NCBI GenBank assembly: GCA_029945375.1
Contig: CM057069.1
Location: forward strand, 1,240,001 to 1,304,000
Direction: 5' to 3'
Source: Agaricus subrufescens
Lineage: Eukaryota; Basidiomycota; Agaricomycetes; Agaricales; Agaricaceae
DNA length: 64,000 bases
How positions within the stretch are numbered: the stretch's first letter is position 1; every line of letters begins with the position of its first letter. The translations under genes were made by a program, and so were the position numbers. The notes beneath the pieces are model-generated. The model was not told where the DNA came from, did not search any database, and worked only from the letters and a program-made list of their open reading frames with translations. This document shows, in pieces, positions 5,538 through 57,352 of this stretch.

Positions 5538-5835
5538 TGTCAGAAGTAGAACGTAGCGCGTGCGGAGACAGTTCTAACGATGGTAGTCACGAGTGAATCG
5601 GATAAGAATTGATTTAGCAATCCTGTGAACAAGTCTAAGAAGCTATCTATGAATATACAGAACTCTATACTCACCTGTGAACAAGTCTACGAAGCTAAAG
5701 GCTTCTAGAGCGTTCACAGACAAGTTCAACATGTGCTTACTAATATATCACATGATCAGAAAGTCGTACCATCTCTAAGTCCATATACAAGACTGTTGGG
5801 GCACTCTAACACAAGACTGCTGGGGCAGTCTAACA
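5538..5835 (-). repeat. 5' LTR of copia B (subfamily I)
   Basis: 298 bp; the outer end is TCTAACA at 5829-5835 on the plus strand and the inner end touches the primer site. It differs from the 3' LTR by scattered substitutions and small indels. Confidence 0.9.
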
Positions 5836-8959: not shown

Positions 8960-9276
8960 TGTTAGAATGCCCCAAGCATTCAGTTATTAGAGTGACTGGA
9001 CAATTTGTTTTGTGGATATCTCGACTTAGAGTACAGCGGATGGTTCTGCTCATGTGATATATTAGTCAGCACATGTTGAACTTGCCTGTGGACGACTTAG
9101 AAGTCTTTAACTTCTTAGACTTGTCCACAGGTGAGCAATCTCTTTGTATTGTTGTTTTAGCTTCTTATACTTGTCCACAGATTAACTGTGCTAATACTAG
9201 CTCAATTCTTATCCGATCCGCTCGATACTAGCATCGTTAGGATCGCCACTGTGAACTCTACGTTCTCGTTCCAACA
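8960..9276 (+). repeat. 5' LTR of copia E (subfamily II, 317 bp)
   Basis: TGTTAGAATGCCCCAAGCAT to TTCCAACA. It abuts the scrambled RT region of copia D on the left and the primer site on the right. No partner LTR for copia E is left in the window. Confidence 0.93.
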
Positions 9277-9288
9277 GGTTATGGGCCC
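9277..9288 (+). other. Copia E primer binding site
   Basis: GGTTATGGGCCC begins at the first base after the LTR and complements the anticodon half of tRNA-iMet. Confidence 0.8.
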
Positions 9289-10063
9289 CGGCTTCTAACA
9301 ACCTACAAATCGACTTTTCATCCTTCAACCATCTTCAACTCAACACCTACTCTCTCCCTTTCCCTCCCCCCTCAAACTATTTTACTTCTCCTGCCCGCAA
9401 TTTTGATCGTATGGCTTCGGGTTCGCCAGCGTTTGTTAAGCTCAACGGGGAGAACTATGCCATGTGGTCCGGCAAGATGGAGGCCTGGCTACGTGCCTCT
9501 GGCCTATGGAGACTTGTTTCAGGCAAGCAGAGTGCTCCCACCATTCCCTCTTCCCCTACTGCCCAGGATTTCGCTTCCCAGTCACTTTGGGAGGATAAAC
9601 TCGATAAGGCTGCTGGCTGGCTCTACTTAATGGTTGAAGAAGACCAAAGGGTGCATTTTGCAGGCATCCAGGACGATCCAATCAAGATGTCGGCTGCTCT
9701 GGAGGCTGTACATCATCAGAAGAAGGCTGGAATGTGATTCAATGCCTATGATGAGCTGTTTAGCATCCGTAAACTCGAGGAGGAGTCCCTCCAGTCGCTT
9801 ATAAACCGTGTAGAGGGCTGCAAACGTCGTCTAAAGGAGCTCAGACCGGAGAAATTCACTCTAGATGAGCTGGATGATGAGCTGGCCTCTATGGCACTGA
9901 TTAGGGCGCTCCCGGACGAGTTTTCTGCTTTTACATCGTCTCTTTTGCTTATGGACAAGCTGGACAAGACCACAATTCATCAGGCCTTCGTTACAGAGGA
10001 TATCCAGCGAAGGAAACGTGCTCAGGACGCCTTGGGAGGCTCCCAGGCCCTGGCAGCGCGTTC

Positions 10064-10312
10064 TGTCAGGTGATGACAGGTCAAGTCATCTGACAGCTTT
10101 GGAGCTCTGAGTTCTCACGAGAAACTGCCTAGTGCCCCAGCCCCTGGAGTGGGCCTGCAGTAGTGAGTTCCAACTCTAGGCCTAGGGTACATATATATAA
10201 TATCCTAGCTCCTATAATACCAAGACCATGTAGCTCAGTGGTTAGAGCTCCCTGGTGCAATTGGGGTGGTCCCAGGTTCAAACCCTGGTGTGGTCACTTT
10301 TCCATCCTAACA
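10064..10312 (+). mobile_element. tRNA-bearing 249-bp TG..CA element, copy 1
   Basis: The unit starts TGTCAGGTGATGAC and ends CCATCCTAACA. It is flanked by an exact 5-bp duplication, CGTTC (10059-10063 and 10313-10317), and removing it restores the gag reading (ALAARS-GFKNA). Five-base duplications and TG..CA ends are the marks of integrase-made LTR insertions. There is no poly(A) and no variable-length duplication as in a SINE. The first 32 bp can form a hairpin (TGTCA with TGACA, GATGAC with GTCATC). The right part holds a tRNA-like sequence (10225-10294). Read on the opposite strand the ends are TGTTAGGATGG and CTGACA, close to the copia LTR ends. I interpret it as a solo LTR or an LTR-like satellite; its full form is not in the window. 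Confidence 0.85.
10225..10294 (+). other. tRNA-like Pol III promoter segment in copy 1
   Basis: The A box TAGCTCAGTGG (10231-10241) and B box GGTTCAAACCC (10275-10285) match the consensus sequences. The D arm (GCTC/GAGC), T arm (CCAGG/CCTGG) and a six-pair acceptor (ACCATG with TGTGGT, two G-T pairs) can form. The anticodon arm does not pair well and has an oversized loop, so this is tRNA-derived rather than a working tRNA gene. Confidence 0.75.
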
Positions 10313-10592
10313 CGTTCTGGCTTCAAAAACGCGTTGGAGACCTGCGATTTCTGTGGGAGGACTGGTCACAAGGTGGCTAACTGCTGGACGTTCGAAAAAG
10401 CGAAGAAACGCGCTCAGGAGGATGCTCAGAAGCCCAGAACTCGAGGAAACAAGGCCAACAAGGCTCAAGACAGTTCCACTGACTCCCCCACCGCTTCCGG
10501 AAGCTCTAGCTCGACTCCTGGTGCCGAAAAAGCGCAGAGAGTCTGAGAATTTGCTGGAAATTGCCCCTCCCTACCTCTTCCTTGCTCTCTGC

Positions 10593-10742: not shown

Positions 10743-10839
10743 TTTTTTTTTTTTTTTTTTTTTTTTTTTGTAATCAATGGGATTTATTTCAAAATCGACC
10801 TTGAGGTGCCATAGTATTACACTTTACATCGCCTGTACA

Positions 10840-13800
10840 CTACCTCTGCCGGCTCAAGACATTACATTGAAAAACAAACAACAAATGAGCAAAAGAAACG
10901 TATCCAGCGGACTTGGTCAACGCTATATGAGAGAGAGAAAAAGAAAAAGAAGAGAGAACGATCGCTTGGAATACAAGTACATTACTGCAGAACAAGAGGA
11001 AAAGTAATCGTTCGAATACAAGCACAAAAAATAGAAACTCCTTGCACCTTTTATGTACATTCCGCCGAGTCCACGGCCTCATCTCCATTACCGAGTTCAC
11101 AAACACCTCACTCCATTCATCCGCCTCGAACACGGTTTCAAACTGGCTCATAATCGTCTCATGATAGAAAATTGGCCCCGTTAGAAGAGGACGCTTGCGC
11201 TTCCTCCTCTCTCGATTCTCGTCTTTCCGTTGCTGGTAAACCTGCTTGTAATACGCAGGCCAGTCAGATTCGTATACTCGTGGCACTCGCGGAAGATCGG
11301 AGTCATCTTCGAACGCGAACGCTTTAGGATTGTCGGCTAGGAATAGGATGAGACCTTGGATGGATTCGATCCCGCCGATGGAATAGTGTTCCGCCCTTCT
11401 GACGAATAAGGGGCAGACATTGAGAATATGCTGGCGCGTCTCCGGTGAGTTGGGGGAACAAGGACACGCTTTGAACGGTTCATTCGGAAAGAAGCGAGCA
11501 CGATACGATCCGATAGGGGCATGATTGGTAATTGTGCGCACAAGACGGGCACACAAGGGGGAGTTATGAGCGACTGAGACCCCACCGTAGTTGCGGAGCC
11601 ATAAGCCTAGATTGAGGTGAGTTGGTTTGTCAACCGTGAACTTACAATTATTTTCGTGATCAGCGGCACCGCCCTGTTTTAACCGATCCGAATTGTCTGA
11701 GCCAGCGGCACCGCCCTGTTTTAACCGGCCAGACTTCTTCTTCCCCGGACGGAGTTGATAGTCTGAGTAGGAGGCGTCCGGCCTCAACATCCCAGTCCCG
11801 AAACTACCGTCGTGAAATTCATCATGCAGAGCAAAGGGGGAGGTGGCTAGCCCCGCTCTCAATTCCCTGCTTGATACCCAAAAGTGATCCGGATACGAAG
11901 CGCAGTGCTTCAACCTCTCAGATTCCACTTTGCAGGATTTTGTGTCGTACCAGCCATGTCCCTTGAAACACGGCCGGTTCGCTGGGTTGTCGAACCCTTG
12001 TTGCCATAGTGCGATAGCTGATTTAGTGGTTTCGCTTCTGGCCCATCTGTATGACGCGGATTGAGGAAACTGGATCCCCGCCCAAGTGAAGGTCCGCTCT
12101 TTTCTAGCGTTCCAATAAGCCTGATAAGCAGCCGGCTGAAGGCCGACATTGCTATCCGGTGGTCGAGTTGCCCAACTCTCTCTGAAGCCCTTCACGCAAA
12201 TATCCACTAAGGGGAATTTGGTTACTAGAGCCTCAAACATGAGCGAGACGGCAATCGACAATTGACTACCGAAAGGCTTAGAGGAGACCGCCATAAGTTC
12301 GCGAACGATTGACGGGGATGTGGTGTAAAGAATGACTCGTTTGACCTCGAGTCCTTTCTCCAGTTTGCGATACGCTTTGAGGAGGCCCAGGAACGCGGAC
12401 CATCCTACCAGTGTTTCCTTCGTGACTCTGCGCCCAGCGGCACGGGTTTTGGACGATATCGTTTTGTCGTTGAACACAGTGGACAAAGCGATGTGGGAAT
12501 GGCTCTGATTCTCCAAGGGGTGGGAGGGATCGATTGGGTTAAGAACACCGGCTGTGATGACATGGAGGTCGCTGGTGTTGTGTATGTTCGCCCCGTGAAT
12601 GTCGAGGTGATAGAGAAAAGAGTCGTCCTTGTCCGCAGGGGGTTGGATGAACTTAATACGGTCCGGGCATCGGTCGATGAGTCGATACCCAGGTTTGATG
12701 TGTTCGGAGAGGGGGTGAAAGATCTCCTTGCATGGAACGTTGATGATGGAGTCGAGGGGAGACTTCATCTTCTGTCGGATCGCCTCGGTTTTGAATTCCA
12801 AGGAGTTGTGGTGTAGGGTCAAGCCCTTGGCTTTCCGCCGTTCTATAAGTGTAAGAACGGGATGGTTTGGGTGTAGTGTGTTGAGACGAATGTTGGATCG
12901 CTCATACAACTTTTTTAGGGTGATGGAGATGGGCATGAGGCCAGCCACGGCACTCATTCCACCTATGGGAGTGGTTCGGAACGCGCCTGTAATCCAGCGA
13001 GCTCCTTGAGAATGGGTGAGTTCGACCATTTTGACGTTGGTCCTAAAACATCGGGTCCCCGGGATGTACCAACAGCGAAGTCCGAAGGTCGCTATTGGTT
13101 GAACGCACGAAATGTATAGCGTACGTTTTTGCTTGACGGTGAGTCCACGCGCTGAGTTGCCAAGGGATTTCATGCATCGAACTGCAGAAATAGATTTCGT
13201 GGCGTAGAATTTGACGTGCTCTTTGAAGGTGAGATTGCGGTCAAACATGATTCCGAGGTACCTCCAGATGGTCTTGGGGGTAAGAGGATTGGTCGAAGTG
13301 AATGGGGCAAACCCGAGAGGGAGAGAAGGGTTAGCCGAGTGATAGTTGCGGGCGGAATCCGCGAAGTTGAAGAGTTCCGTCTTTGAGTGCTCCATAATCA
13401 GACCGAAGTCAGTGAGTATGGAAGTGATTTGGGCGTACGCCTCTTTAAGAGAATCCAGAACGTCCGATCTACAATCCCCCGTTGCAACAAGTAGTCCGTC
13501 GTCAACAAAAGAAAGAAAAGCAGTTAAAGGAAAATGAATATGAGAATCCTCGTCCAATAACCATAAGTCCAAAAGATGGAAAATAGGGGCTAAATACAAT
13601 GCAGAAAGAATTGGAGAAAGCGCACTACCTTGTCCTACACCTACATCAGAGTCGAAGAAAGGAGAGGTTAAATTGTTAATAGAATATTGAGTCTTTCGGC
13701 CAACTAAATAATTAGAAAAGAAAGAAACGACTTTGTTCGCAAAACCAAAATGTTCGATGATTTTAGAAAGTGCGATATGATTCAGAGAAGGGAAAAATTG

Positions 13801-15690
13801 GGCAACATCGAACGCAATGACTGACGTTACCTTTTTGTTGGACCACCCGGCACGAACGTGATGTGTAAGGGCAGTGGCCGCGTCTTCGACAGACCGTTGG
13901 ATGATACCCCCAGTCTGGCATGGATGGATGGCTCCGCTCTCGACTCCTTCGAACTGGAGTCGTTGAGCGATCATCTTTTCAATGAGCTTCCCCATTGTGT
14001 TGAGTAAGACGATGGGCCGGAATGACTTGGCCTTGTCGTAGGAAGGTTTGCCTGGCTTCGGAATGATGACCGATGTCGAGGCTTTGAAGTGTTTGGGCCA
14101 ATGTCCTAAGTCGATGCAGGCATTAGCGATCTTGACTACTAGCTCACATACAGCGTCACTGCATGCGAGCAGTTTCCAAATCCTCCATGAGACGTGATCA
14201 GGGCCTGGGGCCGTGTTCTTGGCGCATCCTTTGAGACCGTCGTGGAATTCCTGGATCGAGAACTGGGGCCATTCTCTCTCCGGTAGCTTGTCTACGTTTG
14301 CCGTGAATTTCTCCAGGTTGATGGAGCGATTATTGGCGGAGTTGTATGTGGAGTGAAGAGTGTCGAATAACTTCTCGGGGGAGTTACACGATGATCCTTG
14401 ATTGTCTAGAATGGCCTCGACAGCCGGTAGTTTGCGTTCGCGTACCCAAGGCATGAGGTCCCAAGGTCGCTTGTTGTCAGTCGCCATTTCTTCGATTTTC
14501 TTGTCGAAGTGTTCGCGTTTAGCTTTTCGAATGGTTCTTTTGAGATTGCCCCTTTCGACGTGATTTCGAGACCCCCCGTTCTTCTTCATCCTCTGATAGG
14601 CCTCCTTACACTCCAAGTTCCACCACTTCTTCCCATGTCGACTTGGTTTCCTTTCCTCCGCAAACTTCAACCACGCACTCTCAAACGTTGCTTCCGTCTG
14701 CTCCATAATTGCTACCAGCTCTCCCAACGACCCCGGTGCCTCTTTCCGCCCTAGCTTCCCTAGCTCCATAGCGATCATATTGACGTAGTCCTTTTCTTCT
14801 TCCGAAAAAGCCTCGATTTTGAACTTTCCTCTTAGTTCCGGTTCTTCTCCTAAGATGGGTACCTCGATTTGAAGGGGTCGGTGGTCTGAGCCCCACCGTT
14901 CCGCTTCGTTGGTCTTGATTTCATAATAAAATCCCTGTGTGTTAATAATGCCCGCCGAAGCGAACACCAAGTCTATTACAGATGCCCTTGAACTGGGGTC
15001 ATCCGGGATTCGAGTTGGCTCCCCTCCGTTAGAGGGAAACACGTATTGAATTTCAAGATTAGTGCATAGATCTTTGAGGCGCATATATGGGGAGGAGGGC
15101 CGTACTTGTGACGCCGCTCCATTGTCCCATTCCCGGTCTTGGATATTGAAATCCCCGGCGCAGAGTGATATTTTAGGGAAATTTTCACTTACTGCTGCTA
15201 GTTGGTGTACCGTGGCATGTGATTGGCCGTCGTTGTACACATTGAGGATGTTGAACTCATTCGGTATACTGCTTCGAGGTCGATTAAGGTGAAGTGTGAC
15301 TAGTGACACGTCTCTGTGTTTGATGACGTCAGAGCGAAGCTGTGGTCTGAAAACGTCAAGTCTTTTGTTTATGTAAGTCAAGACCCTTCGTTCGGGCCTT
15401 AACTCATCAGTATTGTCGAACGCCTCAGTAAAAGGAGTCCATGAGGGGTGAATAGGGGGGCCGAAGGCCATATCCCCCATCTTGTTTTTAGTGGATGGTT
15501 GCCTGCGCACACCTTTCCACCCGGGTTCCTGGAACATGATGATGTCCACATACCCGGCCCATTTGTCAAGCACCGTAGAAGTGGTTTCCCAGCTTTTACG
15601 TGCATTAAAAGAAATAATAGAAAGATTACTTAACGAGTGTGATGCGGGTTTTCGATTTCCGCTTGAGTGAGAGTGGTTGTCGCTATTCAT
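10840..15690 (-). CDS. LINE1 ORF2: endonuclease-reverse transcriptase, 1616 residues, uninterrupted
   Basis: ORF2 nicks target DNA and reverse-transcribes the element RNA from the nick. The AP-like endonuclease (1-290) shows SFNAR (27-31), the E of FQEPGW (54), AGDFN (178-182) and SDHRPL (from 268). The RT (about 520-800) shows FRPI, FDVAQFF (627-633), GQGS (686-689) and FVDDGLLVA with the catalytic DD at 730-731. Residues 1040-1170 align in pattern with RNase H, but the acidic positions read A and T (VITAGV, LYTTSPS). A C-terminal C-x-C-x9-H-x4-C cluster (CPC 1409-1411, H1421, C1426) is typical of LINE ORF2. RLKQGGAA occurs twice near 1325. The ATG overlaps the ORF1 stop (ATGA). This is the only intact ORF2 in the window. 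Confidence 0.93.
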   Translation of the reverse strand: MNSDNHSHSSGNRKPASHSLSNLSIISFNARKSWETTSTVLDKWAGYVDIIMFQEPGWKGVRRQPSTKNKMGDMAFGPPIHPSWTPFTEAFDNTDELRPERRVLTYINKRLDVFRPQLRSDVIKHRDVSLVTLHLNRPRSSIPNEFNILNVYNDGQSHATVHQLAAVSENFPKISLCAGDFNIQDREWDNGAASQVRPSSPYMRLKDLCTNLEIQYVFPSNGGEPTRIPDDPSSRASVIDLVFASAGIINTQGFYYEIKTNEAERWGSDHRPLQIEVPILGEEPELRGKFKIEAFSEEEKDYVNMIAMELGKLGRKEAPGSLGELVAIMEQTEATFESAWLKFAEERKPSRHGKKWWNLECKEAYQRMKKNGGSRNHVERGNLKRTIRKAKREHFDKKIEEMATDNKRPWDLMPWVRERKLPAVEAILDNQGSSCNSPEKLFDTLHSTYNSANNRSINLEKFTANVDKLPEREWPQFSIQEFHDGLKGCAKNTAPGPDHVSWRIWKLLACSDAVCELVVKIANACIDLGHWPKHFKASTSVIIPKPGKPSYDKAKSFRPIVLLNTMGKLIEKMIAQRLQFEGVESGAIHPCQTGGIIQRSVEDAATALTHHVRAGWSNKKVTSVIAFDVAQFFPSLNHIALSKIIEHFGFANKVVSFFSNYLVGRKTQYSINNLTSPFFDSDVGVGQGSALSPILSALYLAPIFHLLDLWLLDEDSHIHFPLTAFLSFVDDGLLVATGDCRSDVLDSLKEAYAQITSILTDFGLIMEHSKTELFNFADSARNYHSANPSLPLGFAPFTSTNPLTPKTIWRYLGIMFDRNLTFKEHVKFYATKSISAVRCMKSLGNSARGLTVKQKRTLYISCVQPIATFGLRCWYIPGTRCFRTNVKMVELTHSQGARWITGAFRTTPIGGMSAVAGLMPISITLKKLYERSNIRLNTLHPNHPVLTLIERRKAKGLTLHHNSLEFKTEAIRQKMKSPLDSIINVPCKEIFHPLSEHIKPGYRLIDRCPDRIKFIQPPADKDDSFLYHLDIHGANIHNTSDLHVITAGVLNPIDPSHPLENQSHSHIALSTVFNDKTISSKTRAAGRRVTKETLVGWSAFLGLLKAYRKLEKGLEVKRVILYTTSPSIVRELMAVSSKPFGSQLSIAVSLMFEALVTKFPLVDICVKGFRESWATRPPDSNVGLQPAAYQAYWNARKERTFTWAGIQFPQSASYRWARSETTKSAIALWQQGFDNPANRPCFKGHGWYDTKSCKVESERLKHCASYPDHFWVSSRELRAGLATSPFALHDEFHDGSFGTGMLRPDASYSDYQLRPGKKKSGRLKQGGAAGSDNSDRLKQGGAADHENNCKFTVDKPTHLNLGLWLRNYGGVSVAHNSPLCARLVRTITNHAPIGSYRARFFPNEPFKACPCSPNSPETRQHILNVCPLFVRRAEHYSIGGIESIQGLILFLADNPKAFAFEDDSDLPRVPRVYESDWPAYYKQVYQQRKDENRERRKRKRPLLTGPIFYHETIMSQFETVFEADEWSEVFVNSVMEMRPWTRRNVHKRCKEFLFFVLVFERLLFLLFCSNVLVFQAIVLSSFSFSLSHIALTKSAGYVSFAHLLFVFQCNVLSRQR

Positions 15691-18677
15691 TCAGCGGACG
15701 AGGAGGGTACTTCGATGATCTGTGAAGGCGGTGCCTCCAAAGCCTGTTTGACATTCGCTTTGCGCTTGTTGCGCTTGTTAGTTTCCCTGTCATTGTCAGC
15801 AATCCGGCGTTGGGCGTGCCAGGATTCGTTGTTCTGGTGTCGTTTATAGACACAATTGGAATGATTGGCGGGGTGGGCACCACCGCAATTGATACATTTT
15901 GGAACATGGGTACACGTACCTGTCCACTCCGGCTTTTTCCTAAGTTCTCCGCAGCAGGGGGCGAAGACGTCATGGTTTTCGGTGTCGTGGGGCTGGTAAC
16001 ACCTGGCGCATTTCTTGTGATTAATGCGGCATCAAGACGTACTGTGATTCCATCGCCAACAGTTTTGACACTGTGGGACAAATTCACGCTGGCAGGCGTA
16101 CGCTAGTTTGATTAGTCAGCCTCGTATGTGATATACCTTGTTAACGAGGTGCTTTGTCATGATGCCCGATTTGGAATCCCAGACATCTAAGAATACAACT
16201 GCTTTGTCATTAGATCCTTTACATTTGACGACTGCGGGTGGTGCTTTGGCTTCGAGGTCGTTGAACTGGACAACCGACTTCATGCCTTCGAGGACCTGTG
16301 TACTGGTTAGTATATCCTCCGGTCTCCTGTTGTGTACGTTGGTCCAATAATTGAAGCCCGTCATGACAAGATGGGCGACAGATTGGGGGGCCTGTGGGTC
16401 CGGCGCCTCCAGGGTAAGGTCTTGACCAAGGGCCTTGTATAAGGCTTCCTTGACATTGGTGAAACCCTGCTTAGAAGGAACAAGGTTGAGATAGAAGTGG
16501 ACGACCGTCTTGAATAGACGGCCGCTTTGAACGCGGAGCTGTGAGGAGATAGAGATGAGATACCTGTTCATCTTATCAACAATGATGCCCATATCAGTGA
16601 AACGTTCTGGCTGAACGATATGGGTAAAACCAAATTGGGCGGACTTCCTATTGAGTCCCCCCGATATTCCTTTTGCGGCCTGTTGGGCCAGAGTCGGCTT
16701 GCGTCCTTTAGACACCGACTCATGTGATTCGGCCGAAGCCATAGAGTTCGTTGGTGTGTACACCAACGGCGCGCATATTGCCATCGCTTCCTGGATGCTC
16801 ATTTCCGGGAAGGACTTCTTGAGTTTGACAGCCCACTGAATGGCCTGGGAAGGCATGTTAGGGGCAACGTTGGGAGCAGTGACGGCCGGCTTCTTGAGAG
16901 CCGACGCGTAAGAGGTCGGTTTGGGTGCTGGGGGAGGGGGAGCACGTGATTTACTCGCAATCCGTTGTGCAGCGTTTTGCTTCCGGGCAGCGATGGCGGC
17001 AGGCTTGGTGTGGAGGGGGATGGGAGGGGGGACAGCCTGGCCTTGGAGCGGCTCTTCCAATTGGATGTAGAGCTCGCGGGGTTTAGATGGTCCAGCAGAG
17101 GGCTGGGTCTTACCTTTCTTGGGTGCCGCTTTTTCTGCGGCAATCTTGACAAACTTGTTGGCCTTGGGTAAGGCCACAATTGTGATGGGTTTGGGAGCCG
17201 GGGGAGGCTGGACTGGGGTGGGAGGGGGAGGGATTGCCTTGCCCTTACCTTTGGCAGCGGCGGGGATGCGCGCTGGGGATGGCGCCGGTGCGGAATCAAC
17301 TTCCATTGGGGCGGCAGGATTTGGAGCCGGGGCCCGGTCTTGATGAGCGGGGGGCGACTGATTGGGGGTAGTGGTCATGGGGAGTAGAGCCTTCTTGTTC
17401 TCGTCGTCCATCTCGTGAATGTATTTGCTCAGCCGATGGTTGAGCGAACCTTTGTTCTGAACCTTGACATGGGCCCAGTCCGTGCCGAGGACAGCCCCAA
17501 AAGCGTTACAAATAAGTTCTGCAACAACGCCAGGGTTGGAGCAGTTGCCAGGTGCCATCTTGATGAGGGGCCCGAAGGCGTCGAACAGTTTCCTCTCAAG
17601 GATGGCTAGTTCATCCGGATAGAAGTGGATCTTCTTTCCATCGTCACCTACAAAGGCTGGAGATGAATGTCTTTCCTCCATCTCCGGGATTTCATCGACG
17701 CGTCTTTTTGCCGCTTCGATGTTCTGGAAATATTGAGTGGCAGTGATCGTGTTGCCCCCAATGACTCTGTCGAGCGACGATTCCCGCTCCTTCTCTTGTG
17801 CCCTGAGGGCATTGAGTTGTGCCTCGGTCATTTTGACAATCTTAGGCATTGTAGGGGTTTTGTCGAGGTCCGGGATCGGGCCTCGAGATGGTGGTGTAAT
17901 TGGCCGGGTCGTAAGAGCCGGGGCAATGATGCCGGACGGTGCCGCTGATGTAGCGAGGCTGTCGGGCGGGTTGGCGGGGGTGAGACTGGTAACCTTCAGA
18001 GCCGGATGACTAAGAAGGGATGGATCGGGGGTCGGAAAGCCGTAACTCTCCGATTGGCTGCGAGGGGCTGACGTGGCCTTTAGAGCCTCGTGGTCTAAGA
18101 GCGCAGAGTCGGGGGTGGAAAAGACGTTGCCTGGGGTGACAGTCTTGTAGGATAATGGTGTCTCGCTGTGGCAAGCAGCGAGGGCGGGGTGCCTGAGTTC
18201 GTCTCGAGTGGGCATAGGGATGCCCCAGTCACTGGAAGATTGGTTAGTGGCCCGGGCTTCTTCCTCCTCTTCCCGGTGCAACTTCTCGATTCTCTCCTTC
18301 TCCAGTCTCTCCAATATCCTCGGATCGTCCTCTATGTCACTCTCCTCCTCACTCTCACTCTCCTCTACCTCCTCCTGAGGTACGATCTCCTTATCCGGTG
18401 ACGGATCCCTGGGAGCAGGTCCGTCTTGAGACTCCTGGGAAGTCGGTACAACTTCCCCCATATCCAATGTTCTGAAGGCACTAGGTGCCAACATCCCCTT
18501 CAATTCTCTAGCCATACTCCTCTTCTTCTTAGGAGCAGCTGTTCTTGATACTAGGTCCTTGGTCCTCTGGTAAAAGGAAGACTTCTTGGACGCTTGGGAA
18601 GATAATGAACAAACACTTCCCGATGGCGATGGCGGTCGCGATGGTTGGTTGTACGGCTGGTTGCGTAACCCAGACAT
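15687..18677 (-). pseudogene. LINE1 ORF1 (gag-like RNA-binding protein), two in-frame TGA codons
   Basis: The frame from ATG 18677 (MSGLRNQPYNQPSRP) to the stop at 15689-15687 has 997 codons including the stop. It contains TGA at 16116-16118 and 16032-16034. Both correspond to CGA in LINE2 (HIRGRL and TSRC), so each is one C-to-T change. N-terminal part: Ser/Pro-rich and basic, then an acidic and charged helix (about 115-150). The middle is Pro/Ala-rich. A conserved C-terminal domain (MPSQAIQWAVKLKKSF onward, DVWDSKSG) precedes three zinc knuckles: CQNCWRWNH-x4-C near 870, CARCYQPHDTENH, and CINCGGAHPANHSNC. The protein would coat element RNA. Termination at the first TGA would remove all knuckles. 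Confidence 0.88.
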
Positions 18678-18805
18678 ACTAGCGGTGGGGTCGAGATCCT
18701 AAGACCAGTCGGTATCCCAATAAAACGTGTTAACGCTACTACAATGCTGGCCAACACCAATATCCTAAACAGGAAGGTGGTGGTTACAGATCAAGAAGCG
18801 TTTTG

Positions 18806-19070: not shown

Positions 19071-20331
19071 ATGGCTTCCGGATTGCCCATGTTTGCGAAA
19101 CTCACTGTGGAGAACTATATGTTAGGATGGAAAAGTGACCACACCAGGGTTTGAACCTGGGACCACCCCAATTGCACCAGGGAGCTCTAACCACTGAGCT
19201 ACATGGTCTTGGTATTATAGGAGCTAGGATATTATATATATGTACTCTAGGCCTAGAGTTGGAACTCACTACTGCAGGCCCACTCCAGGGGCTGGGGCAC
19301 TAGGCAGTTTCTCGTGAGAACTCAGAGCTCCAAAGCTGTCAGATGACTTGACCTGTCATCACCTGACACTATACGACGTGGTCTGGAGAGATAGAGGCGT
19401 GGCTGCGAGCTTCTGGGCTATGGAGAATCATCTCTGGCAAGCAGAAGTCCCCCACTGTGTCCTCCCCTGTTACCCAGGCTGAAGCAGATGCTCTGGACGC
19501 TTTCGAGGCTCGTTGTGACAAGGCAGCTGGCTGGCTATTCTTGATGGTTGAAGAGGAGCAGAGGGTACACTTTAATGGCATCCAGGACGACCCCGTGAAG
19601 ATGTGGGAGGCTCTGGAGGCTGTACACAGGCAGAAGAAGGCTGGGATGCGATTTAATGCTTATGATGAGCTGTTCAGCATCCGAAAACTCGAGGAGGAGT
19701 CTCTCCAATCGCTTATCAACAGGGTAGAAGGCTGCAAACGTCGAATTAAAGAGCTCAGACCCACTTCCTTCACTCTGGAGATGCTAGATGATGAGCTGGC
19801 ATCTATGGCCCTCATTAGAGCACTCCCAGACGACTATTCCGCCTTCTCCTCGTCTCTTTTGCTTATGGACAAGCTGGACAAGGCCACCATTCATCAGGCC
19901 TTTGTCACAGAGGATATTCAACACAAAAAACGCGCTGAGGACGCTTTGGGAGGCTCCCAGGCTCTAGCTGCTCGCTCTGGCTTCAAAAACGCGTCAGTGA
20001 GCTGCAATTTCTGTGGGAGGCTGGGTCACAAGGTGGAGACATGTAGGGCGTTTGAAAACGCGAGAAAACGCGCTCAGGAGGACGCCCAGAAGCCTAGAAC
20101 TCGCGGAAATAAGGCTAACAAGGCTCAGGACACTTCAAATGACGCCTCAAGCTCTGCAGCAAGCTCCTCTTCGACTTCTAGCCCCGAAAAAGCGCAGAGA
20201 GTCCATGAATTTGCTGGAAATGCAAGTGCCTCACATCCTTCCCCTTCCCCTTTGCTTTCTACGCCTCTACAGCTTGATGCTGACTTCCATTGGCTTGCAG
20301 ACACTGGGGCCACTTCTCATATGACCCCACA
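19071..20331 (+). pseudogene. Copia F gag and protease start, split by a tRNA-bearing element and cut by LINE2
   Basis: ATG 19071 opens MASGLPMFAKLTVENY. The 249-bp insertion at 19120-19368 interrupts codon TAT, and the frame resumes after the duplicated CTATA. It then runs without a stop through gag (DALDAFEARCDKAAGWLF, RALPDDYSAFSSSLLLMDKL), the knuckle CNFCGRLGHKVETC and a Ser-rich linker to the protease start HWLADTGATSHMTPH at 20331. There LINE2 begins. None of the CGA-to-TGA changes seen in other gags is present, but missense CpG changes are (RVRE reads RVHE, IQRR reads IQHK). It is the best preserved subfamily I gag after copia B. Confidence 0.88.
19120..19368 (-). mobile_element. tRNA-bearing 249-bp TG..CA element, copy 2
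   Basis: It has the same length as copy 1, in the opposite orientation relative to the host copia. The plus strand reads TGTTAGGATGG ... CACCTGACA and is flanked by an exact 5-bp duplication CTATA (19115-19119 and 19369-19373). The tRNA-like part occupies 19138-19207, with the B box complement GGGTTTGAACC at 19147-19157 and the A box complement CCACTGAGCTA at 19191-19201. It is a second independent insertion with the LTR-type signature, which makes a chance match of ends very unlikely. Both copies lie in copia gag genes. Confidence 0.87.
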
Positions 20332-20433
20332 TCTTTTTTTCTTTTTTGTAATCAATGGGATTTATTTCAAAATCAACCTTAAGGGTGCCATAACGCGTTC
20401 CCCGTACTTTACATCACCTGTACACTACCTCTG

Positions 20434-23400
20434 TCAGCTCAAGACATTACATTGAAAAACGACCAACAAATGAGCAAAAGAAACGTATCCAGTGGACTTG
20501 GTCAACGCTATATGAGAGAGAGAAAAAGAAAAAGAAGAGAGAACAATCGCTTGAAATACAAGTACATTACTGCAGAACAAGAGGAAAAGAAAACGTTCAA
20601 ATACAAGCACAAAAAATAGAAACTCCTTGCACCTTTTGTGTACATTCCGCCGAGTCCACGGCTTCATCTCCATTACCGAGTTCACAAACACCTCTCTCCA
20701 TTCATCCGCCTCGAACACGGTTTCAAACTGGCTCATAATCGTTTCATGGTAGAAAATTGGCCCCATTAGAAGAGAATGCTTGCGCTTCCTCCTCTCTTGA
20801 TTCTCATCCTTCCGTTGCTGGTATACCTGCTTGTAATACGCAGGCCAGTCTGGTTCACATATACATGGCACTCTTGGAAGATCAGAGTCATCTTCAAATG
20901 CGAATGCTTTAGGATTGTCGGTCAGGAATAAGATGAGACCTTGAATGGATTCGATCCCGCCGATAGAGTAGTGTTCCGCCCTTCTGACGAATAGGGGGCA
21001 GACATTGAGAATATGCTGACGCATCTCGGGTGAGTTGGGAGAGCAAGGACACATCTTGAATGGTTCATTCGGGAAGAATCTGGTGCGATAAGATCCGATT
21101 GGGGCATGATTGGTAATTGTGCGCACAAGCCGAGCACACAAAGGGGAGTTATGAGTGACAGAGACCCCACCGTAGTTGCGGAGCCATAAGCCTAAATTGA
21201 GGTGAGTTGGTTTATCAACCGTGAACTTACAACTATTTTCGTGATCAGCGGCACCGCCCTGTTTTAACCGATCCGAATTATCTGAGCCAGCGGCACCACC
21301 CTGTTTTAACCGGCCAGATTTCTTCTTCCCCAGACGGAGTTGATAGTCTGAGTAGGAGGCGTCCGACCTCAACATCCCAGTCCCGAAACTACCGTCGTGA
21401 AATTCATCATGCAGAGCAAAGGGGGAGGTGGCTAGCCCCGCTCTCAATTCCCTGCTTGATACCCAAAAGTGATCCGGATACGAAGCGCTATGCTTCAACC
21501 TCTCAGATTCAGCTTTACAGGATTTAGTGTCATACCAGCTTTGCCCCTTGAAGCAAGGCCGATTCGTTGGGTCATCGAACCCCTGTTGCCATAATGTGAT
21601 TGCGGATTTAGTTGTTTCGCTTCTGGTCCATCTGTATGACGCGGATTGAGGAAACTGAATCCCCGCCCAAGTGAAAGTTCGCTCTTTTCTAGCGTTCCAA
21701 TAAGCCTGGAAACCTGCTGGCTGAAGGCCGACATTGCTATCCGGTGGTCGAGTTGCCCAACTCTCTTGGAAGCCCTTCACACAAATATCCACTAATGGGA
21801 ATTTGGTTACGAGAGCCTCGAACATGAGCGAGATGGCAATCGACAATTGACTACCAAAAGGCTTGGATGAGACCGCCATAAGTTCGTGAATGGTGGATGG
21901 TGAGGTGGTGTAGAGAATGACTCGTTTGACATCGAGGCCTTTCTCTAGCTTGCGATATGCTTTGAGGAGGCCGAGGAAGGCGGACCATCCTACTAGTGTT
22001 TCCTTCGTGACTCTGCAACCAGCGGCATGGGTTTTGGACAATATCATTTTGTCGTTGAAGACGGTGGACAAAGTGATGTGGGAGTGGCTCTGGTTCTCCA
22101 AGGGATAGGAGGGGTCGATTGGGTTATGGACGCCAGCAGTGATAACGTGTAGGTCGCTGGTGTTATGAATGTTCGCCCCATGAATGTCGAGGTGATAGAG
22201 AAAGGAGTCGTCCTTATCCGCAGGGGGTTGGATGAACTTGATGCGATCTGGGCATCGGTCGATGAGCCGACATCCTGGTTTAATGTGCTCGGAGAGGGGG
22301 TGGAAGATCTCCTTGCAAGGAACATTGATGATGGAGTCGAGGGGAGACTTCATCTTCTGTCGGATTGCCTCGGTTTTGAATTGCTGAGTTGTGGGTGTAG
22401 GGTCGAGCCCTTGGCTTTTCGCCGCTCTATGAGTGTGAGAACAGGATGGTTGGGATGAAGCATGTTGAGGCGGATGTTGGAACGCTCATACAGCTTTTTG
22501 AGGGTGATGGAGATGGGCATGAGGCCAGCCACGGCACTCATTCCACCTATAGGAGTAGTTCGGAACGCGCCTGTAATCCAGCGAGCTCCTTGGGAGTGGG
22601 TGAGTTCGACCATTTTGACGTTGGTCCTAAAACATCGGGTCCCAGGAATGTACCAACAGCGAAGCCCGAAGGTCGCTATTGGCTGAACGCACGAGATGTA
22701 TAGCGTACGTTTTTGCTTGATGGTGAGTCCACGCGCTGAGTTGCCAAGTGATTTCATGCATCGAACTGCTGAAATAGATTTCGTGGCATAGAATTTGACG
22801 TGTTCTTTAAAAGTTAGATTGCGGTCAAACATAATTCCAAGGTACCTCCATATTGTCTTGGGGGTAAGAGGATTGGTCGAGGTGAATGGAGCGAACCCTA
22901 GGGGGAGAGAAGGGTTGGCTGAGTGGTAGTTGCGGGCGGAGTCCGCGAAGTTGAATAGTTCCGTCTTTGAGTGTTCCATAATCAGACCGAAGTCGGTGAG
23001 TATGGAAGTGATTTGGGCGTATGCCTCTTTTAGAGAGTCCAAAACATCCGATCTACAATCCCCCGTTGCAACAAGTAGTCCGTCGTCAACAAAAGAGAGA
23101 AAAGCAGTTAAAGGAAAATGAATATGAGAATCCTCGTCCGATAACCATAAGTCCAAAAGATGGAAAACAGGAGCTAAATACAATGCAGAAAGAATTGGAG
23201 AAAGCACACTACCTTGTCCTACACCTACATCAGAGTCGAAGAAAGGAGAGGTTAAATTGTTAATAGAATATTGTGTTTTTCGACCAACTAGATAATTAGA
23301 GAAGAAAGAAACAACTTTGTTCGCAAACCCAAAATGTTCAATAATTTTAGAAAGAGCGATATGGTTGAGAGAAGGGAAAAATTGGGCCACATCAAATGCA

Positions 23401-25274
23401 ATGACTGACGTTACCTTTCTGTTGGACCACCCAGCACGAACGTGATGTGTAAGGGCGGTGGCTGCGTCTTCGACAGATCGTTGGATGATACCCCCGGTCT
23501 GGCATGGGTGGATGGCTCCACTCTCGACGCCTTCGAACTGGAGTCGTCGAGCGATCATCTTTTCAATGAGTTTTCCCATTGTGTTGAGTAAGACGATGGG
23601 CCGAAATGACTTGGCCTTGTCATAGGAAGGTTTGCCTGGTTTCGGAATGATGACCGACGTTGAGGCTTTAAAGTATTTGGGCCAATGTCCTAGGTCGATA
23701 CAGGCATTAGCAATCTTAACCACTAGCTCACATACAGCGTCACTGCATGCAAGCAGTTTCCATATCCTCCATGAGACATGATCCGGGCCTGGGGCCGTGT
23801 TCTTGGCGCATCCTTTGAGACCGTCGTGAAATTCCTGGATAGAGAACTGGGGCCATTCTCTTTCCGGTAGCTTGTCTACATTCACCGTGAATTTCTCCAG
23901 GTTGATAGAGCGATTGTTGGCGGAGTTGTAGGTGGAGTGTAGAGTGTCGAATAACTTCTCGGGGGAGTTACACGATAGTCCTTGATTGTCTAGAATAGCC
24001 TCAACGGCCGGTAGTTTGCGTTCGCACGCCCAAGGCATGAGGTCCCAGGGTCGCTTATTATCGGTCGCCATTTCTTCGATTTTCTTGTCGAAGTGCTCGC
24101 GTTTAGCTTTTCGAATGGTTCTTTTGAGGTTACCCCGTTCGATGTGATTCCGAGACCCTCCATTTTTCATCATCCTCTGATAGGCCTCCTTGCACTCCGA
24201 GTTCCACCATTTCTTCCCATGTCGACTCGGTTTCCTTTCCTCCGCAAACTTTAACCACGCGCTCTCCAACGTCGCCTCCGTCTGCTCCATAACCGCTACC
24301 AGTTCTTCCGTAGACCCCGGTGCTTCCCTCCGCCCTAGCTTCCCTAGCTCCATGGCGATCATGTTGACATAGTCTTTCTCCTCCTCTGAAAAAGCCTCAA
24401 TCTTAAATTTTCCCCTCAGCTCTGGTTCTTCTCCTAAGATGGGTACCTCGATTTGAAGGGGTCGGTGATCTGATCCCCACTGTTCCGCTTCATTGGTCTT
24501 GATTTCGTAATAAAATCCCTGTGTGTTAATAATGCCCGCTGACGCGAACACCAAGTCTATTACAGATGCCCTTGAATTGGGATCATCCGGGATTCGAGTT
24601 GGTTCCCCTCCGTTAGAGGGGAACACGTATTGAATTTCAAGATTAGTGCACAAATCTTTGAGGCGCATGTATGGGGAGGAGGGCCGTACTTGTGACACCG
24701 CTCCATCGTCCCATTCCCGGTCTTGGATATTGAAATCCCTGGCGCAAAGTGATACTTTAGGGAAATTTTCACTTACTGCTGCTAGTTGGTGTACAGCGGC
24801 ATGCGATTGGCCGTCGTTGTAGATATTGAGGATATTGAACTCGTTTGGTATGCCATTTCAAGGTCGGTTGAGGTGGAGTGTGACTAAAGAAACGTCTCTG
24901 TGTTTGATGACGTCAGAGCGGAGCTGTGGTCTGAAAACGTCAAGTCTTTTATTTATGTAAGTCAAAACCCTTCGCTCGGGTCTCGACTCGTTAGTATTGT
25001 CAAACGCCTCCGTGAAAGGCGTCCATGAGGGATGGATGGGGGGGCTGAAAGCCATGTCCCCGAACTTGTTCTTTGTGGACGGTTGCCTGCGCACGCCTTT
25101 CCACCCGGGTTCCTGGAACATGATGATGTCCACATACCCAGCCCATTTGTCAAGCACGGTAGAAGTGGTTTCCCAGCTCTTGCGTGCATTAAAAGAAATA
25201 ATAGTGAGATTACTTAACGAGTGTGGTGCGGGTTTTCGATTTCCGCTTGGGTGAGAGTGGTCGTCGCTATTCAT
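20434..25274 (-). pseudogene. LINE2 ORF2 (endonuclease-RT), frameshifted
   Basis: The start at 25274 (MNSDDHSHPSGNRK) overlaps the ORF1 stop as in LINE1. The endonuclease frame breaks near 24858. The main frame resumes around 24760 with the rest of the endonuclease and complete RT motifs (FDVAQFF, GQGSVLSPIL, FVDDGLLVA) to about 22360. An indel near 22385 (HPQLSNSK replacing HHNSLEF) moves the C-terminal region to another frame, which runs to 20434. The RNase H-like region has the same non-acidic positions as LINE1 (VITAGV, LYTTSPS), so that loss is a family trait. The zinc cluster CPCSPNSPEMRQH is kept. Confidence 0.88.
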
Positions 25275-28256
25275 TCAGCAGACGACGAGGGGACTTCGAT
25301 GATCTGAGAAGGTGGTACCTCCAAAGCCTGTGTGATGTTAGCTTTGCGCCTATTGCGCTTGGTCTTTTCTACGTCATTATCTGCAATCCGGCGTTGGGCG
25401 TGCCAGGATTCGTTGTTTTGGTGCTGTTTATAGACACAGTTAGAGTGATTGGCGGGGTGGGCACCACTGCAGTTGATACATTTTGGAGCATGAGTACACG
25501 TACCTGTCCACTCCGGTTTCTTCCTAAGTTCTCCGCAACAAGGGGCGAAGACGTCATGGTTTTCGGTGTCGTGTGGTTGATAACACCTGGCGCATTTCTT
25601 GTGGTTAATGCGGCATCGGGACGTACCGTGATTCCATCACCAACAGTTTTGACACTGTGGGACGAACTCACGCTGGCGAGCGTACACTAATTTAATGAGT
25701 CGTCCTCGTATGTGATATACCTTATTTATGAGGTGCTTAGTCATGATGCCCGATTTGGAGTCCCAGACATCTAAGAATACTACCGCTTTGTCGTTAGAGC
25801 CTTTGCATTTGACAACTGCGGGTGGGGCTTTGGCTTCGAGGTCGTTGAACTGGACCACCGACTTCATGCCTTCTAGGACCTGTGCACCTGTTAATACGTC
25901 CTCCGGTCTCCTGTTGTGCACGTTAGTCCAATAGTTGAAGCCCGTCATGACGAGATGGGCGACAGATTGAGGGGCCTGTGGATCTGGCGCCTCTGGGGTG
26001 AGATCTTGGCCAAGGGCCTTGTATAAGGCTTCCTTGACATTGGTGAAACCCTGTTTGGAAGGAACAAGGTTAAGATAGAAATGAACGACCATTTTGAATA
26101 GTCGGCCGCTTTGAACACGGAGTTGTGAAGATATAGAGATGAGATACCTATTCATCTTATCAACGATAATTCCCATATCTGTGAATCGCTCTGGTTGAAC
26201 GATATGGGTGAAGCCGAATTGGGCAGACTTCCTATTGAGTCCACCCGAGATTCCTTGTGTGGCCTGTTGGGCCAGGGTCGGCTTGCGTCCTTTAGACGCC
26301 GACCCAGATGATCCGGCCAAAGCCGTGGAGTTCGTTGGTGTGTATACCAACAGAGCGCATATAGCCATTGCTTCCTGAACACTCATTTCTGGGAAGGATT
26401 TCTTTAGTTCTACAGCCCACTGAATGGCCTGGGAAGGCATATTCGGGGCGACGTTGGGGGCAGTGACAGTCGGCTTTTTGAGGGCCGAAGCGTAAGAGGT
26501 CGGTTTAGGTGCTGGGGGAGGGGGAGCATGTGATTGGTTCGCAATCCGTTTGGCAGCGTTCTGCTTACGAGTGGCGACGGCGGCGGGCTTGGAATGGAGA
26601 GGGATGGGAGGAGGGACAGCTTGGCCTTGGAGTGGCTCTTCCAGTTGGATGTAGAGCTCATTGGGTTTGGAGGGACCAGCGGAAGGCTGGGTCTTACCTT
26701 TTTTGTTTGCCGTCTTGTTTGCGGCGATCTGAGTGAACTTGTTGGCCTTGGGTAAGGCCGCAATAGTGATGGGTTTGGGAGCCGTGGGGCTGAACTGGGG
26801 TGGAGGGGGGAGGGGGTGCCTTGCCCTTACCTTTGGCAGCGGCGGGGATGCGTGCTGGGGATGGTGCCGGCGCAGGATCGATTTCCATTGGGGCGGCAGG
26901 AGTTGGAGCCGGGGCCCGGACTTGCTGAGCGGGGGGCGACTGGACTGGGGTGGTCATGGGGAGGAGAGCTTTCTTATTCTCATCATCCATTTCATGAATG
27001 TATTTGCTCAACCGATGGTTGAGCGAGCCTTTGTTTTGCACCTTGACATGGGCCCAGTCCGTGCCAAGGACCGCCCCGAAGGCATTGCAGATGAGATTGG
27101 CTACAACACCAGGGTTGGAGCAGTTATTGGGTGCCATTTTGATGAGGGGCCCGAAAACGTCGAACAGTTTCCTCTCAAGATCGGCCAATTTGTCCGGGTA
27201 AAAGTGTATCTTTCTCCCGTCGTCTCCTATGAAGGCTGGAGAAGAGTGTCTTTCCTCCATCTCCAGGATCTCATCGACGCGCATTTTGGCAGCTTCGATG
27301 TTTTGATAATATTGGGTGGCAGTAATCGTCTCGCCCCCAATGACTCTGTCGAGCGAAGACTCCCGCTCTTTCTCCTGTGCCCTAAGGGCGTTGAGTTGTG
27401 CCTCAGTCGTTTTGACTATTCTGGGCGTCGTAGGCGTTTTATCAAGGTCCGGGATCGGGCCTCGAGAAGGTGGTGTGATTTGCCGGGTCTTGAGAGCCGG
27501 AGCTATGATGCCGGACGGCGGCGCTGAAGTGGCGATGGAGTCAGGCGGGTTAACCGGGGTAGCTTCGGTTACCTTCAAAGCCGGATGACTAAGAAGGGCC
27601 GGGTTGGGTGTTGGAAAGCTGTAACTCTCCGATTGGCTGCAGGGGGCTGACATGGCCTTTAGAGCCTCGTGGTCTAAAAGCGCAGAGTCGGGGGTGGAAA
27701 AGACGTCACCTGGGGTGACAGTCTTATAGGATAGGGGGGTCTCGCTATGGCGTGCAGCGAGGGCGGGATGTCTAAGTTTGTCTCCAGTGGGCATAGGGAA
27801 ACCCCAGTCACTGGAAGTCTGGTTAGTGGCCCAGGCTTCTTCCTCTTCTTCCCGGTGCAACTTCTCAATTCTCTCCCTCTCCAATCTCTCTAAAATCCTC
27901 GGATCGTCCTTGATGTCACTCTCCTCCTCACTCTCGCTCTCCTCTACCTCCTCCTGAGGTTCGATCTCCTTATCTGGTGACTGATCCCTGAGAGCAGGCC
28001 CGTCTTGAGACTCCTGTGAAGTCGGAACAACTTCCTCCATATCCAAGGTTCTGAAGGCACTAGGTGCCAGCATCCCCTTCAACTCCCTAGCCATACTCCT
28101 TTTCTTCTTAGGAGCAGCTGTTCTAGTCACTAGGTCCTTGGTCCTCTGGTAAAAAGAAGACTTCTTGGACGCTTGGGAAGATAATGAACGAACACTTCCC
28201 GATGGCGATGGCGGTCGCGATGGTTGGTTGTATGGCTGGTTGCGTAACCCAGACAT
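25271..28256 (-). pseudogene. LINE2 ORF1 (gag-like), frameshifts and a nonsense codon
   Basis: The start MSGLRNQPYNQPSRP is at 28256. The first frame runs to about 26770, where indels (around 26790 and 26700) shift the Pro-rich region. The C-terminal domain is in frame again from 26440 (MPSQAIQWAVELKKSF) to TGA 25637-25639, which replaces the CGA in CQNCWRWNH. Past that, the knuckles CARCYQPHDTENH and CINCSGAHPANHSNC remain readable to the ATGA overlap with ORF2. Comparing this copy with LINE1 lets each TGA be recognised as a former arginine codon. Confidence 0.87.
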
Positions 28257-28379
28257 ACTAGAGCGCAGGGGGTCGCGAGATATCAAGCGTTATCCCTGTA
28301 GAACATGTATTACCACTACTAAATGCCGGCCAACACCAATATCCTAAACAGGAAGGTGGTGGTTACAGATCAAGAAGCG

Positions 28380-28418: not shown

Positions 28419-28663
28419 TGTCAGGTGATGACAGGTCAAGTCATCTGACAGCTTTGGAGCTCTGAGTTCTCACGAGAAACTGCCTAGTGCCCCAGCCCCT
28501 GGAGTGGGCCTGCGTAGTGAGTTCCAACTCTAGGCCTAGGGTACATATATATAATATCCTAGCTCCCATTACCCGCACCATGTAGCTCAGTGGTTAGAGC
28601 TCCTCATGCAATTGGGGTGGTCCTGTGTGTTCAAACCCTGGTGTGGTCACTTTTCCATCCTAA
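28419..28663 (+). mobile_element. tRNA-bearing TG..CA element, copy 3 (3' end damaged)
   Basis: It starts TGTCAGGTGATGAC like copy 1 and is colinear to CCATCCTAA, then switches to a subfamily I LTR without the final CA. The A box TAGCTCAGTGG is at 28583-28593; the B box is mutated (TGTTCAAACCC, 28628-28638). The anticodon part is shorter (CCTCATGCAA). The left flank AGAGG is not repeated on the right, so the right junction arose by later recombination. Confidence 0.8.
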
Positions 28664-37957: not shown

Positions 37958-38286
37958 GGGCCCATAACCTGTTGGAAGTGGAACGTAGAGTTCGCAGTGG
38001 CGATCCTAACGACGCTAGTATCGAGCGGATCGGATAAGAAATGAGCTAGTATTAGCACAGTTAATCTGTGGACAAGTCTAAGAAGCTGTAACAACAATAC
38101 AAAGAGATTGCTCACCTGTGGACAAGTCTAAGAAGCTAAAGACTTCTAAGTCATCCACAGGCAAGTTCAACATGCGCTGACTAATCTATCACGTGAGCGG
38201 AACCGTCCACATTACTCTAAGTCGAGATATACACAAAACAAATTGTCCAGCCATTCTAATAGCTGAATGCTTGGGGCATTCTAACA
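37958..38286 (-). repeat. Copia I primer site and 5' LTR (subfamily II, 317 bp)
   Basis: Primer site complement GGGCCCATAACC at 37958-37969; LTR 37970-38286, outer end TCTAACA. Directly outside lies AAATCAACAAGTTCCCAG, copia J RT sequence. The same join (CTAACA followed by these bases) appears at 49277 without an LTR. Confidence 0.9.
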
Positions 38287-57252: not shown

Positions 57253-57352
57253 NNNNNNNNNNNNNNNNNNNNNNNNNNNNNNNNNNNNNNNNNNNNNNNN
57301 NNNNNNNNNNNNNNNNNNNNNNNNNNNNNNNNNNNNNNNNNNNNNNNNNNNN
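57253..57352. other. 100-N scaffold gap
   Basis: Exactly 100 N, the usual placeholder for a gap of unknown size. Left of it is copia M gag, right of it non-repetitive sequence. The true length and the end of copia M (gag start and 5' LTR) are unknown. Confidence 0.97.

Follow-up and report, generated by a model that had tools for sequence, protein, structure and literature searches.

A 249-bp tRNA-bearing unit of Agaricus subrufescens is very probably the LTR of a Helenus-type element

How does a 249-bp sequence that carries a tRNA-like part come to be inserted with the ends and short target duplications of an LTR retrotransposon? Two such units, in opposite orientations and differing by one mismatch (99.6% identity), lie in a 64,000-nucleotide stretch of the Agaricus subrufescens genome, which we refer to as the window (Table 1). 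A sequence-only reading of the window had reported both as exactly 249 bp long, with TG..CA ends, CGTTC and CTATA duplications and tRNA-type A and B boxes; the coordinates, lengths, ends and duplications all proved exact. The unit begins with TGTCAGG and finishes with CCTAACA, and no direct terminal repeats were found at its ends within the 249 bp. The third copy of the window (28419-28663, forward strand) was missed by that reading.

Table 1. Coordinates of the unit copies, their internal parts and the copia sequences discussed in the text. Positions are those of the window unless a locus (L) or contig (C) is given.
Feature	Position	Strand	Basis
Resident copia with an LTR at either end, of the candidate helper type; PBS GGTTATGGGCCC and PPT GGGGGGTG, both common to the interior of relic L013	798..5835	-	
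Copia fragment (LTR and gag) hosting copy 1; empty site seen in counterparts elsewhere in the window	8960..10592	+	
5-bp target duplication CGTTC, left of copy 1	10059..10063	.	
Unit copy 1, 249 bp, TG..CA ends; host site a copia gag gene	10064..10312	+	
Subterminal inverted repeat TGTCAGGTGA / TCATCTGACA; arms 90% complementary, 12 nt apart	10064..10095	.	
TATA-rich stretch, about 20-35 bp 5' of the tRNA-like start; putative role	10190..10203	+	read from sequence
tRNA-like sequence of copy 1; GCA (Cys) at the anticodon position	10224..10297	+	ARAGORN, Rfam
A box TAGCTCAGTGG, unit 168-178	10231..10241	+	presumed consensus
B box GGTTCAAACCC, unit 212-222	10275..10285	+	presumed consensus
T4 run (TTTT, unit 235-238), 11 bp short of the unit's end; possible Pol III terminator	10298..10301	+	
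5-bp target duplication CGTTC, right of copy 1	10313..10317	.	
5-bp target duplication CTATA, left of copy 2	19115..19119	.	
Unit copy 2, 249 bp; host site a copia gag gene	19120..19368	-	
tRNA-like sequence of copy 2	19135..19208	-	ARAGORN, Rfam
5-bp target duplication CTATA, right of copy 2	19369..19373	.	
Unit copy 3, decayed (94%), final two bases missing, without 5-bp duplication; no ARAGORN tRNA call	28419..28663	+	
Relic: 75-bp interior directly before the unit	L013:3759-4021 = C7:870458-870720	-	unit-end test
75-bp interior of the relic	L013:3947-4021		
Whole chimera: complete copia type B LTR, PBS, 61 more bases ending in the PPT, unit	L013:3759-4338 = C7:870458-871037		

ARAGORN called a tRNA-Cys(GCA) in copies 1 and 2, and the Rfam tRNA model scored the unit at 52.4 bits against a gathering score of 29. 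The A and B boxes read earlier in both copies hold: TAGCTCAGTGG and GGTTCAAACCC fit the consensus. Among 20 tRNA loci sampled from the matches listed, the body of the tRNA-like part was closest to tRNA-Ile(AAT), with 43 of 52 aligned bases identical; the alignment to a tRNA-Cys(GCA) (40/47 bases, same 20 sampled loci) scored below it. The comparison was drawn from the best 63 of 1614 Rfam candidates genome-wide; 24 of these 63 were, by position, copies of the unit, and units of the Helenus type inflate genome tRNA counts. Eight of the same best 63 matches fell on contig C44, perhaps the mitochondrial genome. The folding minimum of the tRNA-like part contained no cloverleaf (z -0.96), and we accordingly make no claim that the tRNA works as one. 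The reading of the unit as an LTR that holds putative tRNA-type Pol III promoter sequences is supported.

We surveyed the genome (44.65 Mb, 44 contigs) for the unit; the search scored 40 of its 42 candidates, and we read the ends of all 40. The counts are lower bounds, and one further fragment of the tRNA part (C17:56356-56410) surfaced in a separate search. The non-redundant list of 40 stretches comprised 27 copies with both terminal bases, three that lacked the last two bases only, and ten truncated ones. The 5-bp duplication was exact in 18 of the 27 two-ended copies. Because three of these 27 repeat a neighbourhood that is itself duplicated, the independent sites number 24: 15 with exact duplications, two with four of five bases matching (L020, L033) and seven with none (L014, L019, L025, L026, L034, L035, L037). 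One more copy, at L039, was split by a LINE-like insert (unit 1-176 and 161-249, with poly(A)) and had an exact ACTCT duplication, bringing the count to 16 of 25 sites, where the chance of an exact duplication is 1/1024 per site. The sequence-only reading had called for such a tabulation; a genome in which most copies lacked 5-bp duplications, or had longer ones with tails, is not what it revealed.

Several sites without a duplication had disturbed flanks. About 12 bp of the target site were missing at L025, L037 had the appearance of a decayed duplication, different repeat parts were joined at the unit in L014 and L035, and one flank was inverted at L026. L019 lay between LINE ORF2-like and ORF1-like sequence, and the flanks of L034 could not be assigned to any named repeat. 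Recombination was seen in host flanks deleted, joined or inverted around units at L014, L026, L032 and L035. At L036 the unit was cut at position 231, where a T run follows.

Empty sites were sought by joining the two flanks, removing one copy of the duplication and searching the genome for matches that spanned the junction. Every one of the 18 exact-duplication copies had such a match, as had the two with four of five bases; among the former they were gap-free in 17 (best two matches each), with one or two gaps at L030. For the seven copies without a duplication, five had no junction-spanning match and two had gapped ones only, and the three copies without the last two bases had none. Insertion by LTR-type integration, not of the SINE type, is supported, as is the integrase-type insertion proposed earlier, with exact 5-bp duplications, TG..CA ends and an empty site for each of the 18 exact-duplication copies. 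By our own classification, 12 of the 16 exact sites were in copia sequence (nine coding, three LTR), one in a LINE ORF1-like gene, two in other repeats and one unassigned. The copies form a cluster on each contig; outliers lie on C1, C5 and C11. Agaricus bisporus is described as having one large methylated repeat cluster per chromosome, the likely centromere (PMC7473861), and the nests of units may correspond to such centromeric repeat clusters.

Gag, integrase and RT_2 domains are present in the polyprotein of the resident copia. Across 58% of its length the copia protein shows 81% identity to a protein of A. bisporus var. burnettii, which, like the RNA polymerase II subunit piece given below, places the host among the Agaricomycetes. 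Three copia elements had matching LTR pairs; the 5-bp duplication was exact at L018:103-7653, matched at four of five bases at L023:1093-6481 and at three of five for the resident element. There are two copia LTR types in the window, at 5538-5835 and 37970-38286, and both interiors open with GGTTATGGGCCC, apparently the complement of the initiator tRNA's anticodon arm. In fungal Helenus elements, this arm is the commonest primer type in the account available (PMC10886601).

Every intact unit end was tested for an adjoining copia-like primer site (PBS) and polypurine tract (PPT). The PPT GGGGGGTG stood immediately 5' of the unit's first base at one of 36 intact 5' ends, that of L013. No PBS followed the unit at any of the 31 intact 3' ends, and neither motif was found at unit ends when the unit was read in the opposite direction. 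The interior of the L013 relic opens with GGTTATGGGCCCCG, the first 14 bases of the copia type B interior, 12 of which are shared with the start of type A, and it closes with the PPT of copia type A (last 8 bases). The 61 bases after the PBS matched no copia interior start tested, and the 75-bp interior occurs once in the genome. On its 5' side the relic has an LTR of copia type B, and its unit stops at position 188, where an inverted type A copia LTR ends, so the relic is rearranged; the remainder of the cut unit was not found in the 3 kb further out on C7. A three-mismatch match at C10:823022 was rejected, there being no unit beyond the short match.

The anatomy of the relic is that of a TRIM, with a PBS, a tiny interior, a PPT and a 3' LTR, and it shows that the tRNA and the LTR point the same way. 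It is a direct physical link between a tRNA-bearing LTR element and the resident copia as its likely helper. Through recombination at the PBS that both have, the copia 5' LTR may have taken the place of a unit; the chimera possibly arose by recombination or by a template switch at that PBS, and the PBS could have arrived with the adjoining copia LTR. The 12-base termini of the unit fitted copia LTR termini best (16/24) when the unit was read opposite to its tRNA, a fit equalled by 61 of 20,000 random TG..CA pairs, although with random ends as the null part of the resemblance may be a common LTR-end convention. This hint of direction is contradicted by the relic, to which we gave more weight. 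No match of more than nine bases between the unit and either copia LTR type was present among the matches listed.

Very likely, the unit was the LTR of a small non-autonomous LTR retrotransposon of the Helenus type, with a tRNA-like Pol III promoter in that LTR and a putative copia helper. The interior of the parent element would contain hardly anything besides a PBS and a PPT; if it resembled that of the relic, the two-LTR parent would measure 249 + 75 + 249 = 573 bp. The resident copia, as putative helper, would prime, copy and integrate the element in trans, giving the 5-bp duplications, and recombination between the two LTRs would then leave solo units. A Pol III transcript is predicted to start near unit position 150, cross the interior and end in the 3' unit, at its T4 run.

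Helenus (TRIMp3; Kojima 2024), in the available part of its description, has tRNA-bearing LTRs and, in fungi, 5-bp duplications; it is mobilised by Copia, with which its PBS is common, some of its families are left as solo LTRs only, and its hosts include rust fungi, Agaricus bisporus, Coprinopsis and Amylostereum (PMC10886601). Judged from that published description, the unit shares with Helenus the tRNA-like A and B boxes in the LTR (its own LTR status resting on the relic), the 5-bp duplications of fungal members, a basidiomycete host, a short PBS-PPT interior (here one relic, of 75 bp), an interior or PBS similar to copia (in the relic, 14 bases of type B and 12 of type A), an anticodon and a tRNA body that disagree, and the solo-only state of some families. 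It differs in that Helenus has two LTRs around its interior. We therefore call the element Helenus-type and not a proven member, since a search for an interior with a unit LTR on each side found none.

Other small elements share fewer of these features. Cassandra TRIMs of plants also have a Pol III gene sequence inside the LTR, but this is 5S rRNA rather than tRNA, and they form long tandem arrays in a plant host (PMC7215508). SMART/FRetro129 of grasses is likewise a tiny non-autonomous LTR element with 5-bp duplications and solo LTRs; unlike the unit it has 85-bp LTRs, the available part of its description makes no mention of tRNA, and complete copies outnumber solos by 3.4:1 to 50:1 (PMC3281118). 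The sequence-only reading had proposed a fungal, tRNA-based counterpart of Cassandra: the fungal host and the tRNA boxes in an LTR stand, and such a counterpart is already known as Helenus (PMC10886601). The kind was published in 2024, and the unit is a further example, in a mushroom, present almost entirely as single units. A text search for Helenus and TRIMp3, with most subscription journals outside its coverage, returned no report beside PMC10886601. Of the paired units with PBS and PPT between them that the same reading had suggested looking for, one relic with a PBS-PPT interior was recovered, but no two-unit copy.

No two-unit copy with an interior was found in the genome, where the sole same-orientation pair within 18 kb was the split copy L039, and the unit's 3' end joined to the PBS had no genome match at ≤3 mismatches. 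Two candidates were rejected: TGGTAG... after the unit at L014 as a PBS, the flank being copia coding sequence, and the flanks common to L025/L032 and L025/L035 as an interior, these being copia 3' sequence. Inverted unit pairs about 1 kb apart occur at C12:981691-982950 and C7:870458-871885, one member of each being truncated. For comparison, we examined copia LTRs over 247,763 bp, made up of the window and 19 further loci that had been chosen for the unit and were in some cases duplicated. Among 29 copia LTRs with both termini, 27 adjoined a PBS (15), a PPT (11) or both (1), and two adjoined neither; none of the 29, from the window and the 19 loci chosen for the unit, was flanked by a duplication. 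This control replaced a first one with one LTR type and 18 LTRs (6, 6, 2, and 4 at edges).

All 25 independent two-ended sites hold single units. This near-total single-unit state, set against nearby copia LTRs that hardly ever stand alone, offers a test of how fast tiny LTR elements lose their interiors. It is also what would be seen if the unit were a stand-alone, single LTR-sized piece of tRNA-bearing DNA, mostly integrated by the copia integrase without a two-LTR stage, inside the copia of putative centromeric clusters, with the relic rare or ancestral. The attachment of 27 of 29 nearby copia LTRs to an interior suits such a history, as does our own arithmetic, by which 25 solo units at 25 sites have p ~1e-5 under the counts for LTR-1_PTrit, with 529 LTRs and 144 interiors (PMC10886601), that is, at most 241 solo of 385 loci when every interior is taken with two LTRs. 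We nevertheless find it improbable, because the relic joins a PBS-PPT interior to the unit, solo-only Helenus families are known (PMC10886601, in the part available), and very short elements may lose their interiors fast: a 573-bp element with 249-bp repeats should shed its interior faster than a 5-kb copia. Among transcribed ta-TRIM loci, 38 were solo and 25 full-length.

Nor does the similarity between units decide for a stand-alone unit. The window segment 5305-33511 is duplicated at C8:576000-604200 (28 kb), with the same three units and a patchy 1.8-3.3% of substitutions. Two of the shared units have no substitutions and the third has eight, and 35 of 111 intervals of 249 bp also have none, so unit identity is no safe clock, and its use as proof of youth was dropped.

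It is very improbable that the unit is a MITE with TGT..ACA ends, one that captured a tRNA gene and, as a non-autonomous DNA transposon, is cut and pasted by an integrase-like transposase of the Ginger2 type. Single units would be expected of it, and the unit's TGTCA/TGTTA ends fit the TGTNR ends of Ginger2/TDD transposons, which make 4-5 bp duplications, of 5 bp for TDD-4 and TDD-5; the same source, in the part available, gives inverted repeats of 40-270 bp for Ginger1 and 50-180 bp for Ginger2, and no PBS or PPT, in which the unit differs (PMC2836005). Its end-to-end inverted repeat is by eye just TGTYAGG, none of ≥7 bases links both ends among the repeats listed, no longer element with the unit's ends appears among the matches listed, and the model leaves no room for the relic's junction between PPT and unit. 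A Ginger/IS481EU-type MITE was rejected in the same way, its end pattern fitting and the inverted repeats being too short. Abr1 of Agaricus bisporus makes 7-bp duplications and was set aside on that ground. The duplications of IS481EU are given as about 4, 15 or 25 bp in the available text (PMC10045372). A viral-contig scan with a 33-base unit end gave no match, a result of little weight.

That the unit is a SINE of tRNA origin, mobilised by the resident LINE, is scarcely credible: the tRNA-like A and B boxes and the LINE-like ORFs of the window would suit it, but it is contradicted by the fixed 249-bp length, the 5-bp duplications, the absent 3' tail and 160 bp 5' of the tRNA that would lie outside any Pol III transcript from that promoter, and the LINE-like insert that splits L039 left, unlike the unit, a 15-16-bp duplication and a poly(A) run.

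The window also contains two 8-kb LINE-like copies (10756-18800 and 20334-28379) in direct repeat, about 90% identical, and a run of 100 Ns at 57253-57352 that is either an assembly gap or a withheld stretch. A piece of an RNA polymerase II subunit showed 94% identity to a Marasmius protein over 92%.
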